Assembly (NCBI GenBank): GCA_949290735.1
Contig: CASESV010000009.1
Coordinates: 1 to 64,000 of the forward strand
Direction of reading: 5' to 3'
Length of the DNA stretch: 64,000 nucleotides
DNA from: an uncultured Mycoplasmataceae bacterium
GTDB taxonomy: Bacteria; Bacillota_I; Bacilli_A; Mycoplasmatales; Mycoplasmoidaceae
Within the stretch, counting starts at the first letter, position 1. The number at the start of each line of letters is the position of its first letter. The notes beneath the pieces are model-generated. The model ran no database searches and was not told the origin of the DNA. It worked only from the letters and a program-made list of their open reading frames with translations. Shown here one piece after another: positions 24,676 to 51,303 of this stretch. The translations under genes and the position numbers were made by a program.

Positions 24676-24801
24676 AAAATATTAAATCACTCTTAATTTT
24701 GTAAAAAAATGAACCTTTTTTCTAGAAATTTTATAAATATATTATATTATTGATATAAAAAAGTATATGTATTTCAATATTTTATGGTATAAGTAAATTA
24801 T

Positions 24802-24897
24802 ATGAAAAAATTTATTTTAAAGACTACAACCATTTGAAATATTATGAATTGTATGAATAATCCTTCATGCAATTTTGTGTTTTTGTTGGAGTGTTAG
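24802..24897 (+). CDS. Candidate 31-residue leader peptide of the opp operon
   Basis: An in-frame ATG-TAG frame encoding 31 residues (one TGA-Trp) with Cys at 17, 23 and 31; the last Cys codon is directly before the stop. An extended -10-like TGGTATAAG (24786-24794) lies just upstream, so it could be translated from a leaderless transcript. Its stop codon falls inside the 5' arm (24894-24903) of a helix that competes with the terminator at 24929-24961. That geometry is what a translation-sensing attenuator needs. The protein itself resembles nothing known. Direct evidence of translation is lacking. Confidence 0.5.
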
Positions 24898-24961
24898 TTT
24901 AGGTTATAAATATTTATTATAATTGTCTAAGCTAATCTGTCCAAAAGATTAGCTTTTTTTT
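24894..24961 (+). promoter_or_regulatory. Terminator/antiterminator attenuator before oppA
   Basis: The terminator stem is AAGCTAATC (24929-24937) with GATTAGCTT (24947-24955), followed by an eight-T run to 24961. The competing helix pairs 24894-24903 (TTAGTTTAGG) with 24926-24935 (TCTAAGCTAA), ten pairs with two G-U; it would consume the terminator's 5' arm. oppA begins 32 bases later with a strong GAGGAGG ribosome site. Alternatively the hairpin is simply the terminator of transcripts from the sucrose operon. Confidence 0.6.
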
Positions 24962-24992
24962 AAAAAATTACAAATTTTAAGAGGAGGGAGCC

Positions 24993-27629
24993 ATGAGAGC
25001 TAAGAAAAAATGAATTATAGCATTAACTACAATTGCAGCAGCTGCATTGGCTGCTTCTTCTTTAACAGTTCTATTATGACCTGTAGATGCTGCAACTGCA
25101 ATGAGTACATATATAACAAAATTTACAGGTAATGATGAATCTTCTAAAGCAAAAAATGAAGTTATACAAAATGCTATTAATGATGCAAGAGATGTTCTAA
25201 ATGATTACTATGATAAAAACCAGAATGCAAAATCTTTAAATTTTTATTTTTGTAATTTAAGAAGAAGTCAAACTCAAGGTGAACGTAATTTTTACACTGC
25301 ATTAGATCGTTCAATGAAATATATCGATGAAAGACTTGGAATACAAAATATTCAAAGAACACCAAAAACAGTAAATGATGCTTTTTATAACAAGAATACT
25401 GAAATGATGAGCTTTTATTGATCACCTGATTATAACAATATAGGTACATGAATTAAATATATGTTAACTGAAACATATACATTACCAAATATATGAAACT
25501 CTGTTTATAGCATATTAGAAGGAACAACTGGTGAAACATATAATTGATCTGCAAGTTTGAAAGATTTTATACAAGGTTATAACTTAACTGGCACTAACCA
25601 AAGCTTATACATGAGCCCAATTGAAATAGTTGAGTATGTAGCTTCTAATAAAAATACTAAAAAAATAAAGTTAGATGAAGTTTATACTACTTTAGCAAAT
25701 GTTATAGGAAATTGAATTGCTACTGAATCACCATTGGAGATAGAAGAAGAATTAGATCCTGAAACAAATAAAATGGTTAAAAAATATGGTGGAGATTCTG
25801 GTACCTTATCAAAAGGTATAGAATTTGTAAATTATGTTGCTAGTTTAAATCCAAATATACCATATCAAGAAGTTGGGAACGGTACATCTACTCCATATTT
25901 AGTTTCTAATGGTGTTTATATGCCAACAAATTCTAATTCTAATAACAATTTCCGTGATTGATATCTTTATAAAAATATTAACAATAAATCAGTTGTAAAA
26001 GATTGAAATAGTGCCGATCCTTTTACAAGTAACGAAACAGCTTGAAACGGACCATTTTCTAAAGCCACAAATACACTATTTGCTCAATCAATTTGAACAA
26101 ATTTAACCTCATGATCTACTAGAGGAGATGAAAATGATCCTATTTATGGTGAAAAATCAATTAAACTTTTATCTTCTTCAATTGTTGAAGATATTGATGA
26201 CCCTATAGTTTTAGAAAAATTTATAGATGAATTTGAAAATCAACATAAATTAACTTTCACTATTCGTCCTATTGAATGAGTTGACACTAATGGTAGAGGA
26301 ACAGGTTCTTATTTATCACCACAAGATTTTTGAGCTGGAATGTATTCATTTGCTTTATCTATTCAAAATGGATTAAATGCTAACAATGCATATTTTATAC
26401 AATTAGCTTCAATAAACTTTGAAAAAACTTTAACAGAAGATGCAAATAACCAACTTAGAAACCAATCTAAAAGTGAAACAAAAAAATTCACTATATATTT
26501 TGATGAACCAATTTTATCACTTGAAGATACATTAGATCTTTTACAAAAACAATATTTTTGCGCACTACCAGCTGAGCATGAAAAAGTAAAGAATATCTAT
26601 GATCCTGTTAGATATAATAGTATTGCTGTAAATTATCCTGGAACTAATACTTTAGATACTGCTGCAACTAATATGAAAATGTTTTATGGTGTCGGTGATG
26701 GTACAAATCCCGATGTATGAAAAGAGCTATGATCATCAGCTCCATACTATATAAGTAATGTTGATAAACAAAGTATCACATATAAAATAAATAAAGGATA
26801 TTTTGAATCATTTAAAGATTTAGCTACAACAAATGAATCTTATATATCTTATAATTTGGAAAAGACATTAGATGATGGTTCAATAATGGCAAAAATTCCA
26901 GAAATTAATGTTAAATATGCTGGTTCTTATAATTTAGATATATTATTTGAACAATTTATCTCAAAAGAAATAGATAAAACACCATTGCAAGGTGCTAATT
27001 TATTAACAGCAATTAATAATTATGGAAACAATTTAAGATATGAATCTACAAAAAAAATACAACAATCGAATGTTGTAGGATTTAATTTACAAGTATATGA
27101 AAAATGAACTGAACCATTAAGTTCTGTTCCAGCAGGCTATAATCAAGCAACAAATATTATTATTGATAGTGAAGGGAATCCGATGTGAGATCCGCAAACT
27201 AGAAAACCAACATACACTATGGATGAATATGGTAATTACGTTTTTGAAGAAGGTAAAAAACCAAAATTAAAATCTAACATTTCTCAAGAATATTATGATT
27301 TAATAGTTAAAGATTTTTATACACCAAACGGTACAAGCGCAAAAATTAGATTTGCAATTATGAACTCTATTAATTGAGTATCATTGCAAACATTAGTAAC
27401 ACCAGGTGTTACAGGTTCTATTCAATATTCTTTTATGCCTTATGGTGTTTATAATTTTGAAGATTCTAATGGGAATGATATTACTGGTGAATATTGAGAT
27501 TTAGCGGCAAATAAAAGATATATGACTAAAGAAGAATTAGATGATATGTCAGCTGAAAATATTAAAAAAAGAAAATCAGGAAATATGATTTGAACTTATG
27601 GTGAGTTGAGATCAGCAATGATTAAGTAG
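24993..27629 (+). CDS. oppA: Oligopeptide ABC transporter substrate-binding protein
   Basis: An 878-residue extracellular solute-binding protein (SBP_bac_5-like). A short basic N-terminus precedes one hydrophobic segment (roughly residues 7-28, ALTTIAAAALAASSL) with no lipobox Cys, so it is anchored by an uncleaved helix or a cleaved ordinary signal. The IRPIEWVDTNGRGTGSYLSPQDFWAG region resembles the DVxxT-x-R-DA region of OppA. It is larger than classical OppA (~540) as in other mollicutes. GAGGAGG just before the ATG is the strongest ribosome site here, suiting an abundant surface protein. First gene of oppA-BC-D-F and downstream of an attenuator. Confidence 0.85.
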
Positions 27630-27641
27630 AAAGGAGAAAAC

Positions 27642-29921
27642 ATGCTAAAGTACATACTTAAACGTTTAGGTTTTGCAATATTAGCTTTATTTGTACTATT
27701 AGTACTTGTTTTCTTTTTGATGCAAGCAGTTCCAGGATATCCTATTGTTAGACAAAATAACGATACTGATGTAACTTACATGGAAAAAGTAAGAAATGCA
27801 GGTTTATTGGAAAATGTTTTTGTCCAATTCTGAAACTTTTTAGTAAATTTATTTACAACAGGGCAGTTTGGTCAAATATATACAAATTCAGATAAAACCG
27901 TATATTCAGAAATGTTAGATCCAATTAAATATACAATGGTAATTGCAGCGCCAGCCTTTGTCTTGTCAAGTATAATTGGAGTGGTACTTGGAATTTTTAG
28001 TGCTTACTATCGGGGTAGGTTTATTGATGTTATTATTAATGCACTCAGTGTTTTATTTATTTCAATTCCTTCATTTATCCTCGCCCTCTATTTAATTAAA
28101 TTGGCAAATGTTATTGGATTGCCTACTCAATTCTTGATATTTGGTTCTGCACCACCTGGTAAGGTAATCTTATCAATGTTAATGCCAATTTTATCAATGA
28201 CATTTACTTCAATTCCTGTCATTACATACTATACAAGAAATGAATTAGTTGAAGTTTTTAAACAAGATTATATTAAAGTTGCTTTAGCTAAAGGTTACAA
28301 GTTTAGACAAGTGGTATTTAAATATGCTTTAAGAAATGCTTTAATTCCAATTATATCTGTTATCTTACCTTCGTTTATTGCGATCTTATCTGGTTCTATA
28401 ATTATAGAAAAATTCTTTAATGTTCCTGGAACTGCAAATATATTAATTGATAGTATTAGTACAAAAGAATTTTACATAGTTGTGTTTTCAGCTGTTTTCT
28501 ATGGTGCAATATACTTTCTTTTACAAATTATTGTTGATGTTTCATATACATTTATAGATCCTAGAATCGTTTTAGCTGAAAAGAAAGCGAACTCATGAAC
28601 AAAGAAAATAGGGTATTGATATGCTAGAAAGAAAAAATTAAATTTATTATTAAACCAAGACAAATATTTTAATTATTTTAATAAAAAAATAGATCAAAAT
28701 ATTGAAGTGGTAGATAACAATAATGATGTTAGTAATAGATTTGAAACTGATTCTGAAGAAGTTATTATGGATTATGATAATGTAGTAATTTATAATGAAC
28801 AAAAACCAATTCCAAATGTAAGCCAACATTTATTTAAAGAAGTTGATATTTTTAGTTTTTCATCAGAACAAATTGCTGGTAAGCCAACTAAGTATGCAAC
28901 AGATGTAATGAAACGTTTCTTTAAATCAAAATCTGCATTAATATTTACAATTATATTAGCTCTTATTGTCGTTGTAAGTCTAATTGTTTCATTAGCAAAT
29001 TTAAAAACAGTTAATCTGCCAATTACTGATTCATTACCAGGTTCTGTTTTGGCTTATTTGCCAACAAGAATACCATGATTAGGTATATCTGGGGTAAGCG
29101 ATGTAGTTATAGATAATGATACATATATTGCTTTATTGCCTTACAATGATCAATATGGCTTGTGAAGTTCTGTTGAGAATATAGGTGGGCAGTGAAAAAT
29201 TTATGATTTTAACCCATATAATATTCCATCATTATCAAATATTACATTGTTAATGGGTACTGATGGTTTAGGTAGAAATTGAAGTACTCTTTTATGAGTT
29301 GCAACTATTAAGTCTCTATTATTTGCTTTAGTTGTTGCAGTTCCTTCAATGATTATTGGTACTATATATGGAGCTGTTGCAGGTTCATATGCTGGTAGAT
29401 GAGCAGATACTATCATGATGAGAATTATTGAAATTTTAACATCAGTACCTTTAATTTTATGAATTATGATTTTAGGTTTGATATTTGGTGGTAATACTTT
29501 AAATTTATTTGTAATTGGAATTGCTTTAATTTTAGTAAACTGAATGGGACCAGCATCAACCACAAGAACATATATACTAAAATATAAAGATGCTGAATTT
29601 ATCCAAGCAGCTAAAACTTTAGGTGCATCAAAAGCAAGAATTATTTTTAACCATATGCTACCAAATATTTTAGGAAGATTATTTGTTAGATTAGTTAATA
29701 TGATTCCAAGAATTATTTTCTTTGAAGCATCACTAGTCTTTTTAGGTTTAAAATCTGCAAACGAAATATCATTGGGAACAATGATAGAAACAGCAAGACA
29801 AAATCAATATATACATTTATTATTAGGTCCAACAATTATGATGGTTTTAATTACATTATCATCACAAATTATTGCAAATAATCTAAATGATTCCTTAGAT
29901 CCGAAAGTGTCAGGTGATTAA
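27642..29921 (+). CDS. oppBC: Fused oligopeptide transporter permease OppB-OppC
   Basis: One uninterrupted 759-residue frame, with TGA read as Trp, covers both permeases. Residues 1-~320 are OppB: N-terminal helix LGFAILALFVLLVLVFF, then the EAA-like loop (YIKVALAKGYKFRQVVFKYALRNALIP). Residues ~320-410 form a hydrophilic cytosolic linker rich in Asp and Asn. Residues ~410-759 are OppC: first helix near 415-440, LLGTDGLGRN-type region, then EAA loop (FIQAAKTLGASKARIIFNHMLPN). No TAA or TAG occurs between, and OppB's C-terminus and OppC's N-terminus are both cytosolic, so the fusion is topologically possible. Normally these are separate genes. An assembly error is the alternative. Confidence 0.85.
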
Positions 29922-29922
29922 A

Positions 29923-31143
29923 ATGTTTAACAAAACTTTAAAACTTGAAAATTATGTTACTGATCCAAAATATAAACTTAAGGATAATCGTGTCTTGGAT
30001 ATTAGAAATTTAAAAGTTTCATTCAAAAACAAATTAGGTTATGTTCAAGCAGTTAGAGGTATTGATTTATCTTTAAGAAAAGGTGAAATAATTGGTTTAG
30101 TAGGTGAATCTGGTTCTGGAAAATCAGTTTCAATTAAATCAATACTTGGATTCAATGATGGATCAGTTTTAGATGCAGAATGTTTAAATTTAAATGGTAT
30201 AAACATACTAAGTATCAAAAAAAATCAATGACCTTTTGTTAGAGGTACTAGAGTTGGATATATCCCACAAGATCCATTAATGGCTTTAGATCCTACAAAA
30301 AAAATTAAAAATCAAATTTTAGATGCAATTAAAATAACACAGGTTAGAAAATATCATAACACTATTTTTGACATTGAGAATGACCAAAAACTAAATGAAC
30401 AAGAAAAACAATTAAAAAAACAAGAAGCTAAAAAAAATTACCATGAAAATACCAAAAAAGCTTCAATGTATAAAAGAATGATTGATGCTTTGAAATTTAT
30501 AGGTATAAATAATCCTGAAGATTCTATTGAATCATATCCTCATGAATTTTCAGGGGGAATGCGTCAAAGAATTGTTATTGCTATTACTATCATGGGAGAA
30601 CCAGATGTAATTATTGCTGATGAACCAACAACAGCACTAGATGTTACAATACAAGCAAAGGTAATTGATTTAATTAAAAAGCTTCGTGATAGTTTAGGAA
30701 TATCGATTATTTTTATTAGTCATAATATTGCATTAGTTGCTAATTTATGTGATTATCTTTATATTATGTATGCAGGAATGATTGTTGAAAAAGGTACAAT
30801 TGAAGATATTTTCTTAAGACCAAAACACCCATATACATGAGCTTTAATAACATCAATTCCAGATGAAAATAATGATGATGAATTAGTTTCAATTCCAGGA
30901 ACCCCACCAAATATGATAACACCTCCAAAAGGTGACGCTTTTGCTGCTAGAAATAAATATGCAAGAAAAATTGATTTTGAAAAGCAACCTCCTATGTTTC
31001 AAGTTTCTCAAACTCATTTTGCAGCAACATGATTATTGCATCCAGATGCCCCAAAATTATCATTACCTATAGAGGTTAAAAATAAAATAAGAATTGCAAA
31101 GAAATCAATATTATTAAAGAAAGAGAAGCATTATGGAAAGTAA
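29923..31143 (+). CDS. oppD: Oligopeptide transporter ATP-binding protein OppD
   Basis: A 406-residue ABC ATPase powering peptide import with OppF. Walker A GESGSGKS is near residue 62, the Q-loop follows at YIPQDPLMALDP, the signature FSGGMRQR near 208, and Walker B IIADEPTTALD after it. A Lys/Glu-rich insertion of about 50 residues (near 135-190) sits between Q-loop and signature. The C-terminal oligopeptide-transporter extension (PGTPPNM) is present but its usual cysteine cluster is not seen. It starts at 29923, one base after the oppBC stop, and overlaps oppF by 11 bases. Confidence 0.93.
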
Positions 31144-33505
31144 AAAAATATTAGTAGTAGATAAATTAAATAAATACTTCAATAAATCAGGAAAATTAGT
31201 AAAAGTACTTGATAATGTTTCTTTTGATGTTTATGAAAATGATTTTCTTGGAATTATTGGTGAATCTGGTTCTGGAAAATCAACAACAGGAAAATGTATA
31301 ATTAGACTTTATTCATCGTCATCAGGAAATATTATTTTTGATGACAAAATAATTAATCAAAATAAGATTTCTAAAAAAGACAAAAATTGATTATGTAGAA
31401 ATATGTCAATGGTCTTTCAAGACCCAATGTCATCATTAAATTCAAGAAAAAATGTTCTTTCAATCATTGCAGAACCATTGATTATTAATAAGACATTAAG
31501 TAGTGATACAAAAGCACTATTAAAAAGATGTAGCATTATTAATCAATATTTCCAAAATACTTATAAATGACAAGATTATAATTTAACAAAAGAATTTGTT
31601 TTACCATTCTATCAAAATTCTATAAAAAATTATCGAGATGCAATTAGTAAAATTAATAGCATTTCTCCAGGGTTAGAAAATTTATTAGAAATTAAAAATC
31701 AATTTATTGATTTAGAGAACAATTTAAAATCTGAAATTAAATTAATCACTGAGTATAATAGACTTATAAAATTATTAATTACATATAACTATGAAATATA
31801 TGTAAACAATGAATTGCATGAAACAGAATTAGATTATAAAGCTAAGGAAATTTTTTTAAAGAATGAAAAAAAATTAACTCAAGCTCCTAAAGAATATTGA
31901 GAACTTAAAGAACAATGTGATTATTTAGAAAATAAATTAAATAATTTTAAATCAGATATTGAGTTTAATTTTTGTCAACAAAGTCAAAATCGTTATAAAT
32001 CAATAATCAAAAGATATTCTAGTGAGATAAATACATTAAAAAATAATTCAATATTGACTAATTCAATTACTGAAAACATATCCCAAAAGGTTGAAATTTT
32101 AATTTTAAAAGACACATTGAGTGCTATGAATCATTTAAAAGATCATACATTTATGAAAGATTTTGAAATTGAAAAATTATCTAATGAAGTAAATACAATT
32201 ATCAAAAATAAATATAACTCTTTATTAAATGAAATATCAATATTAAATAAAATTTCAGAAGAACTTGATAAATTATCAAATGAAAATAGTTCAAAAGAAA
32301 TAATAAAAGAAAAATTAACAAATTACAAAAAACAATATGAGATTGTTGTTAATTTATATGATAAGCTAGAGAAAATTAATTTCATTGATCATGATGACAA
32401 TTTTAAGAAACTTATTAATGATTATATTAATTATTCAACAACAAACAAAAATCAATATCATGAAGACATAAAACAAAAACAAAAAGAGATTGATGATTTA
32501 AAGCAAAAACTTGAAAAATTAAAAAATAAAAAACTTTCTGAAAATAAAAATTATGAAGATGCTAAAAAAGAATTTGAAATTTCAAAACATATAAGAAATA
32601 ATTTTATTGATCAAGATAATGAGTTTTTTAATAATAATAAACTTCCATTAATAAAAAATCAAAACGAATTAATCAAAGAATATAAAAAACAAATTGTTAA
32701 ATTACAGAAAGAACTTAAAAAAAGTATTCAATCAAAGATAAAATTATCAAAAAAAGAAATTTCAAATGATAAGTCAAAATTAACTAATTTGAAAATTATT
32801 GAAAAAGAAATAAATTTAAAGTTTTTAACGATTGAAGCTATTAATTTTGAAATAGAAAATTATGAAGAAGATTTAAAATTGTATCGTCGTTTAAGAACTA
32901 AATCAAAAACAAAATTATATGCAAATTATAAGTCTTTAAAAAACTCATTAATGAGAACTTATGTTTATAACGCATTAGACGAGGTTGGTTTGAAAAATGA
33001 GCATGCTTATAGATATCCACATGAATTTTCAGGTGGTCAAAGACAAAGGATTGTTATTGCTAGAGCTCTTATTTCAAAACCAAAATTAGTAATTGCAGAT
33101 GAACCAATATCAGCGCTTGATGTTTCTATTCAAGCACAAGTTATTAATATTATGAAGTCTTTAGCAAATCGTTATGGAATTACTTTCTTATTTATAGCTC
33201 ATGATTTATCTATGGTGCGATATACATCAAACCGTTTAATCATTATGCATAGAGGTAAAATTGTTGAAAAAGGAAATACTAGTGAAGTATTTAATAATCC
33301 TATTCATCCTTATACAAAATCTTTAATTAAAGCTTCACCAGAACTTAGTAAAATTCATATCGATTTAGCGTCGTTTAGTTCAAGAATGGATTATGACAAA
33401 AATTATTCACCAACAAACCAACCAACATTCTATAAATTAGAAAATGAACAAGAACATTATGTTTTTGCAACGGAGGATCAATTTAAAAAATGAACAACAA
33501 AATAA
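31133..33505 (+). CDS. oppF: Oligopeptide transporter ATP-binding protein OppF with large helical insertion
   Basis: A 790-residue ABC ATPase. Walker [10 protein letters not shown] is at about 43-51 and the Q-loop at [12 protein letters not shown]; the signature FSGGQRQR comes only near residue 632, followed by [10 protein letters not shown]. Between them is about 430 extra residues of Lys/Glu/Asn-rich sequence with strong coiled-coil character. Similar insertions are known in OppF of M. pneumoniae relatives. The true stop is TAA at 33503, as the TGA at 33491 is Trp; the next gene starts inside this one at 33490. The insertion's function is unknown. Confidence 0.92.
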
Positions 33506-40009: not shown

Positions 40010-40028
40010 TGTATAATAAAAGCAACTA

Positions 40029-40106
40029 TATCTAACTTGTAATATATCTCAAATTGGTGAGATGTTTCTACAAAAGGCCTTAACCTTTAACTTATAAGTA
40101 TAGATA
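40029..40106 (+). ncRNA. Purine riboswitch aptamer upstream of NCS2 permease
   Basis: P1 pairs TATCTA/TAGATA (40029-40034 with 40101-40106) plus CTTG/TAAG; P2 is ATCTCA/TGAGAT around loop AATTGG; the conserved junction GTTTCTAC follows; P3 is AAAGG/CCTTT with loop CCTTAA. Loop GG and CC can form the kissing contact. The position that pairs with ligand appears to be C (in AACTTA), as in guanine/hypoxanthine sensors. TAGATA can re-pair with TATCTA at 40137-40142, giving a possible switch near the ribosome site AAAGGAG (40150-40156). Confidence 0.8.
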
Positions 40107-40160
40107 AACATACTTCTATTGTTGTTGGATATAGTATATCTAATTAACGAAAGGAGTGTT

Positions 40161-51137: not shown

Positions 51138-51280
51138 TAAAATTTAGTTGTATAAAGAAAGTAGTGTAAAACTCACCTGACATTTCTCCTTTTTTGTAAA
51201 TGTAGGTATATAAGCTTTAAGTTATAAAACTAAGATTATATGAGTCATACATATTTTTTTATATGTGTGACTCTTTCTTT
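51138..51280 (+). promoter_or_regulatory. infC operon promoter, leader and attenuator
   Basis: TAAAAT (51138-51143, after TGTGG) is a plausible extended -10. The leader has a hairpin ACCTGACATTT/AAATGTAGGT (51175-51185 with 51198-51207, one bulged G) and then a 13-pair hairpin (51242-51254 with 51261-51273, one G-T) ending in a T-rich run. This terminator sits only about 25 bases before the infC ATG, with no later promoter seen, as expected for L20-controlled attenuation known from B. subtilis. No clear antiterminator was found. Confidence 0.6.
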
Positions 51281-51303
51281 ATACATATTAAAATGAGGTA
51301 TTA

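Follow-up and report, generated by a model that had tools for sequence, protein, structure and literature searches.

In the 64,000-nt stretch of DNA analysed here (the window), which belongs to the 1.06-Mb draft genome of a mollicute using genetic code 4 (G000), the leader of the oligopeptide ABC importer operon is probably a ribosome-mediated transcription attenuator. The 317 nt that separate oppA from the stop codon of the preceding ROK kinase gene (24675) hold a short reading frame, both competing helices and the terminator (Table 1). Upstream lies a sucrose-type cluster (PTS, GH32, ROK kinase), carried entirely on the plus strand.

In the mechanism we propose, transcription would begin a short way before the leader ATG, and the 5′ end of the RNA would be the loading site for a ribosome. 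When charged tRNAs are ample, the ribosome would reach the stop codon and cover 24886-24907, blocking the antiterminator; the terminator would then fold and transcription would end before oppA. A stall in codons 8 to about 25, a range that includes Trp12, Cys17 and Cys23, would leave the 5′ arm of the antiterminator (region 2) free to pair with 24927-24943, which would destroy the terminator and allow opp to be transcribed. With no ribosome on the RNA, the leader would take its default structure and transcription would terminate. The signal would be slow translation on amino-acid shortage, and the response more peptide import.

Table 1. Features of the opp leader and operon in the window.
Feature	Position	Strand	Basis
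Candidate extended -10 promoter element TGGTATAAG	24785..24793	+	sequence; transcript start predicted near 24800
Leader peptide frame, 31 codons, MKKFILKTTTIWNIMNCMNNPSCNFVFLLEC, near-leaderless (predicted)	24802..24897	+	sequence; homologous frames of other lineages keep frame
Hairpin within frame, spans Cys17 and Cys23	24846..24875	+	-11.2 kcal/mol, p = 0.016
Antiterminator 5′ arm (region 2), includes stop codon	24886..24903	+	-14.5 kcal/mol, p = 0.002
Antiterminator 3′ arm (region 3), overlaps terminator 5′ arm	24927..24943	+	complement search, fold model
Intrinsic terminator, 10-bp stem, 7-nt loop, T run	24929..24961	+	sequence, terminator scan
Shine-Dalgarno sequence AGGAGGG of oppA	24982..24988	+	sequence
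oppA-like substrate-binding lipoprotein, DUF5396 family	24993..27629	+	Pfam PF17374, E 1.7e-20
oppB-oppC fused permease	27642..29921	+	PF00528, PF19300, PF12911
oppD ATPase	29914..31143	+	PF00005, PF08352
oppF ATPase	31133..33505	+	PF00005, PF08352

The leader frame, read directly from the sequence with code 4, extends from the ATG at 24802 to the TAG at 24895-24897. It contains one TGA, read as Trp, and three Cys codons at 24850, 24868 and 24892 (Cys17, Cys23 and codon 31), and its stop lies inside the 5′ arm of the antiterminator, as an initial annotation of this DNA had described. A -10-like TATAAG with a TG, recognized by consensus match only, precedes the ATG and is the presumed promoter of the leader; given its position, the transcript start and the ATG would be about 2 nt apart, and no Shine-Dalgarno sequence accompanies the ATG. 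A TATAA(T/G) likewise precedes the leader ATG by 6-28 nt in seven of the compared lineages. M. gallisepticum lacks Rho, and its 5′ UTRs have a mode near 15 nt, with some transcripts leaderless (PMC4245973). The presumed coupling of transcription and translation finds a parallel in the physical RNA polymerase-ribosome expressomes of M. pneumoniae (PMC7858274), which we infer to be a family relative of the window organism. The sequence of this region that best resembles a sigma-70 promoter (TGGACA-16-TATAAT, 11 of 12 positions) is on the minus strand at 24916-24943, antisense within the antiterminator and terminator, and might drive an antisense transcript across the leader.

The ten-pair antiterminator of the initial annotation is formed by TTAGTTTAGG at 24894-24903 and TCTAAGCTAA at 24926-24935, G-U pairs included. 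The terminator, AAGCTAATC-tgtccaa-GATTAGCTT at 24929-24955 followed by a T run, is strong and lies 38 nt before the ATG of oppA and 254 nt past the previous stop codon. Both structures use 24929-24935 and are therefore mutually exclusive, as the same annotation had recognized, and its coordinates are borne out base by base. When the leader upstream of the terminator was searched against 500 dinucleotide shuffles, the terminator 5′ arm was found to pair best in a longer helix, 24886-24903/24927-24943, whose energy was matched by none of the shuffles. The leader as a whole folds at -42.9 kcal/mol, against a mean of -25.1 for dinucleotide shuffles (z = -5.7). For 30 other terminators of the window and its relatives, the identical complement test gave a median p of 0.63; four had p < 0.05, and two of these four are themselves attenuator-type: the L20 leader and, in G027, another leader of oppA.

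Only two strong terminators in the 64-kb window stand directly before a gene start, that of oppA and that of infC-rplT. The latter belongs to an L20-leader-like attenuator before infC-rpmI-rplT (51153-51285; a sub-threshold Rfam match of 19.8 bits against a gathering score of 58.7), with a strong terminator at 51242-51273 and an antiterminator complement at p = 0.010. It served as a positive control and shares with the opp leader the placement of its terminator, but L20 leaders mediate ribosomal-protein autoregulation and have no leader peptide. The only riboswitch of the window at gathering score is a purine aptamer (40018-40113), located before a gene of the xanthine/uracil permease family at 40119. 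Rfam matches within the opp leader at E 0.8-3 were attributed to chance, as was a 38-nt match of the leader to its own genome (C10, E 4e-5), which falls inside uvrC.

An addition to the elements of the initial annotation is the hairpin inside the frame, whose p value is given at the resolution of 60 shuffles; combined over lineages, in-frame hairpins reach a Fisher probability of 6e-4. The hairpin of the window was also scored as terminator-like in the terminator scan. It likely acts as a pause hairpin, helps to sequester region 2 in the default fold, or does both. Hairpins occur inside the leader frame in several leaders, that of the window included, and may pause the polymerase until the ribosome arrives.

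The dependence of the fold on ribosome position was computed with a model in which the ribosome masks the RNA as far as 15 nt past the P-site codon. With the full leader of the window, the predicted terminator probability is 0.97 without a ribosome. A stalled ribosome is predicted to give an antiterminator probability of 0.88 at codon 8, 0.92 at codons 12 and 21, 0.53 at Cys17 and 0.90 at Cys23, and a ribosome located anywhere from codon 27 through the stop to give a terminator probability of 0.90-0.97. This model agrees with the earlier proposal that a finished peptide would favour termination and an earlier stall read-through. A stall at the third Cys (codon 31) would place the ribosome in the terminating position. 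The terminated state of the ribosome-free leader was rejected as a special property of the window, since 52 of 100 shuffled frames give the same state.

In the same model, before arm 4 has been transcribed, the pattern of antitermination on early stalling and termination on late finishing is also predicted for G022a, G031a, G023, G026, G028, G029 and G073, and in G022a, G031a, G023 and G026 the ribosome-free state is off as well at this stage, before the last terminator arm. The pairing of regions 2 and 3 is computed to be independent of ribosome position in G022b, G031b, G076, G080, G082 and G025. At full-length equilibrium most leaders other than that of the window favour the terminator at any ribosome position, so that switching there would have to be kinetic.

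Leaders of oppA and oppB were gathered across 95 genomes of the family, apparently Mycoplasmoidaceae, and the attenuator architecture recurs before these genes in roughly twelve lineages whose leader sequences are unrelated. A short frame and a terminator lie directly before the transporter gene in both paralogous operons of G022 and of G031, and also in G026/G028/G029, G025, G027, G073, G023, G090 and G071. To these are added five distinct Mycoplasmoides-type leaders (G078, G084, G080, G082 and G076, with G077 almost identical to G076); comparable opp units are present in Mycoplasma bradburyae (G077) and Mycoplasma imitans (G080). Of the 18 leaders tested, 12 have a complement to the terminator arm at p < 0.05, and ten lineages combined give a Fisher probability of 1e-7. 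Region 2 overlaps with the stop codon or the end of the frame in five leaders, those of the window, G026, G028, G029 and G073.

The five Mycoplasmoides-type species retain GATTGCTT (arm 1), AAGCAATC (arm 2) and GTGATTGCTT (arm 3) without change, with highly divergent spacers between them, and their terminator shows two compensatory pairs. Arm 2 could pair equally well with arm 1 or arm 3, and the arrangement is the classical 1:2, 2:3, 3:4 layout.

The frames themselves are maintained: those of G022a and G031a differ at 19 positions with no indel, a 10-nt indel lying just past the stop codon; those of G022b and G031b show 18 differences and no indel; those of G028 and G029 differ by a single 3-nt indel; and the leaders of G078 and G084 are kept in frame. 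The pN/pS of the peptides is 0.6-0.9 in several pairs and above 1 for G078/G080, indicating weak purifying selection, and the peptide itself evolves almost freely, as leader peptides in general do. Peptides cannot be aligned across lineages, and two candidates for cross-lineage homology, the shared motif T-I/V-W and 12 nt that are identical in the window and G029, were rejected as no better than shuffled peptides.

The initial annotation had looked to conservation in relatives as a check, and on this point the picture is mixed: conservation appears strong across the family but weak and patchy inside the window's own genus. There, G070 has a terminator with a frame of only 2 codons and a complement at p = 0.10, G071 has a frame of 11 codons, and no U-tailed terminator precedes opp in G068 or G069.

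Some of these loci have further features. In G022 and G031, about 140 nt between the leader frame and oppA are nearly identical (L077, reverse complement about 1295-1450, and L078, about 1085-1215), whereas the leader frame differs at 17% of positions; the stretch, which closes with an 18-bp hairpin lacking a T run, may be a separate structured RNA. The hairpin of G022b and G031b is strong but has no full T run. In G029, G028 and G026, long poly-T tracts of differing length lie within the first 60 bases of L104, L105 and L106, just upstream of the leader promoter region, and could act as a phase-variable promoter spacer.

The opp terminator might instead close the upstream sucrose-type operon, with oppA served by constitutive read-through or from a promoter that overlaps the terminator, and with the frame and the antiterminator present by chance. 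The upstream genes do share the strand of opp, the 317-nt gap contains no other strong terminator outside the leader, and short frames are cheap in AT-rich DNA. However, terminators at gene ends in the window lie 10-21 nt past the stop codon rather than 254 nt, there is no room for a promoter between the terminator and oppA, and the antiterminator is unexpected at p = 0.002. The unit also recurs behind other upstream genes: in G025 the terminator stands between divergent genes, so that no operon upstream could end there, and the upstream tRNA of G070 and the upstream gene of G027 have terminators of their own. We therefore regard this explanation as unlikely. We also give little credence to a peptide-independent attenuator in which a ligand- or protein-binding RNA, riboswitch-like, chooses the fold and the frame is incidental. 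The strong fold of the window leader and the G070 terminator without a usable frame would suit such an RNA, and the near identity of the non-coding part of G022b/G031b beside a frame diverged by 17% suggests an additional RNA element. Against it, an Rfam search of the window leader and 14 loci of relatives returned no family match except one tRNA, no sequence or aptamer is common to the lineages, frames are kept through indels, and the frame end overlaps region 2 in the five leaders named above. It is very improbable that the opp operon uses the 31-codon frame to make a functional small protein and not as a regulatory leader: the frame is defined and starts near the promoter, but lineages share no conserved peptide, selection is weak, Ala, Gly, Asp and Glu are under-represented, and the end of the frame overlaps the antiterminator.

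Within ribosome-mediated attenuation, the alternative to be weighed concerns the signal. The leader might sense translation rate without amino-acid specificity, as ermC, bmrB and vmlR do, so that any slowdown, including that caused by antibiotics, would turn opp on; this is a sub-version of attenuation and not an alternative to it, and we hold it to be a real but not the favoured possibility. The model supports it in that a stall anywhere from codon 8 to about 25 is predicted to antiterminate, and the leaders of G073, G023, G090 and G076 are free of Cys. With one leader per lineage, Cys is nevertheless the most enriched residue (17 of 365 residues, 4.7% against 0.70% in the proteins of the window, 6.7-fold, 1.6e-9), and three Cys in the 31 codons of the window leader have a probability of 1.3e-3 against the proteome. 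Against the background of the DNA's own out-of-frame triplets, however, the excess does not reach significance at the 5% level (p = 0.09), which makes general amino-acid shortage the safer statement; cysteine-specific sensing is only suggestive, and we treat the cysteine bias as a hypothesis. A search with Aminotran_5 returned a single class-V aminotransferase, from which we draw nothing about cysteine supply. In G074 (L087, about 1836-1901), a near-leaderless frame, MVCKCVCLQSILLIFHIDHCK, with four Cys in 21 codons and no terminator, lies directly before oppA. Its Cys content speaks against a nonspecific sensor, as does the role of Opp itself, which supplies amino acids and would make their shortage the natural signal.

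Leader-peptide attenuators have been called unusual outside Proteobacteria and Actinobacteria (PMC2965389). No earlier mollicute case was found in the literature searched, with subscription journals mostly outside its scope, in agreement with the initial annotation, which knew of none. The closest known geometry is that of M. tuberculosis ilvB1NC, of the trp/his/ilv type (PMC13236596): it too has a short upstream frame and an exclusive antiterminator and terminator, and a ribosome at the stop masks the antiterminator arm while an earlier stall gives read-through. Compared with attenuators of this type, the opp leader controls a peptide importer and not a biosynthetic operon, resides in a mollicute, is predicted to be leaderless, reads TGA as Trp and has no run of codons for one amino acid. 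The polycysteine leaderless sORFs of mycobacteria (Canestrari et al. 2020), as reported in PMC9031893 and PMC13236596, share the predicted leaderless start, the Cys codons and an amino-acid-responsive control of the downstream operon like that proposed here. By these accounts they act on translation through contiguous Cys codons, whereas the opp leader has scattered Cys codons and an intrinsic terminator; the G074 leader resembles them most. In the ermC, bmrCD and vmlR leaders of Firmicutes (PMC2965389, PMC4191407, PMC9226507), the position of the ribosome in the frame also selects the RNA fold, but these answer ribosome-targeting antibiotics and control resistance genes, unlike the proposed opp switch.

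T-box leaders (RF00230), known in Gram-positive bacteria, likewise switch between antiterminator and terminator according to amino-acid supply; the opp leader has a frame instead, does not match RF00230 and contains no specifier or T-box sequence. The T-box is absent from 94 of the 95 family genomes, which leaves the amino-acid-sensing niche open. The single clear case (117 bits, L124, G016:C6:15434-15665) is found in an incomplete draft and is possibly a relic or contamination.

As a tentative extension, which we advance with less than even confidence, leader-peptide attenuation of peptide import might be a general response of the T-box-free Mycoplasmoidaceae to amino-acid (perhaps cysteine) starvation, rebuilt many times with unrelated peptides and helices on one logic, including a translation-level polycysteine version in G074. 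If true, this would be the first ribosome-mediated attenuation system to be described in mollicutes. Transcription factors are few in mollicutes and T-boxes almost lacking in this family, so that how nutrient uptake is adjusted becomes an open question, one of 'regulation without regulators' (PMC4245973). A leader-peptide switch placed on the main amino-acid source would provide a simple answer, using the ribosome-polymerase coupling seen in M. pneumoniae, and the logic of the attenuator would persist while its peptides and helices turn over.
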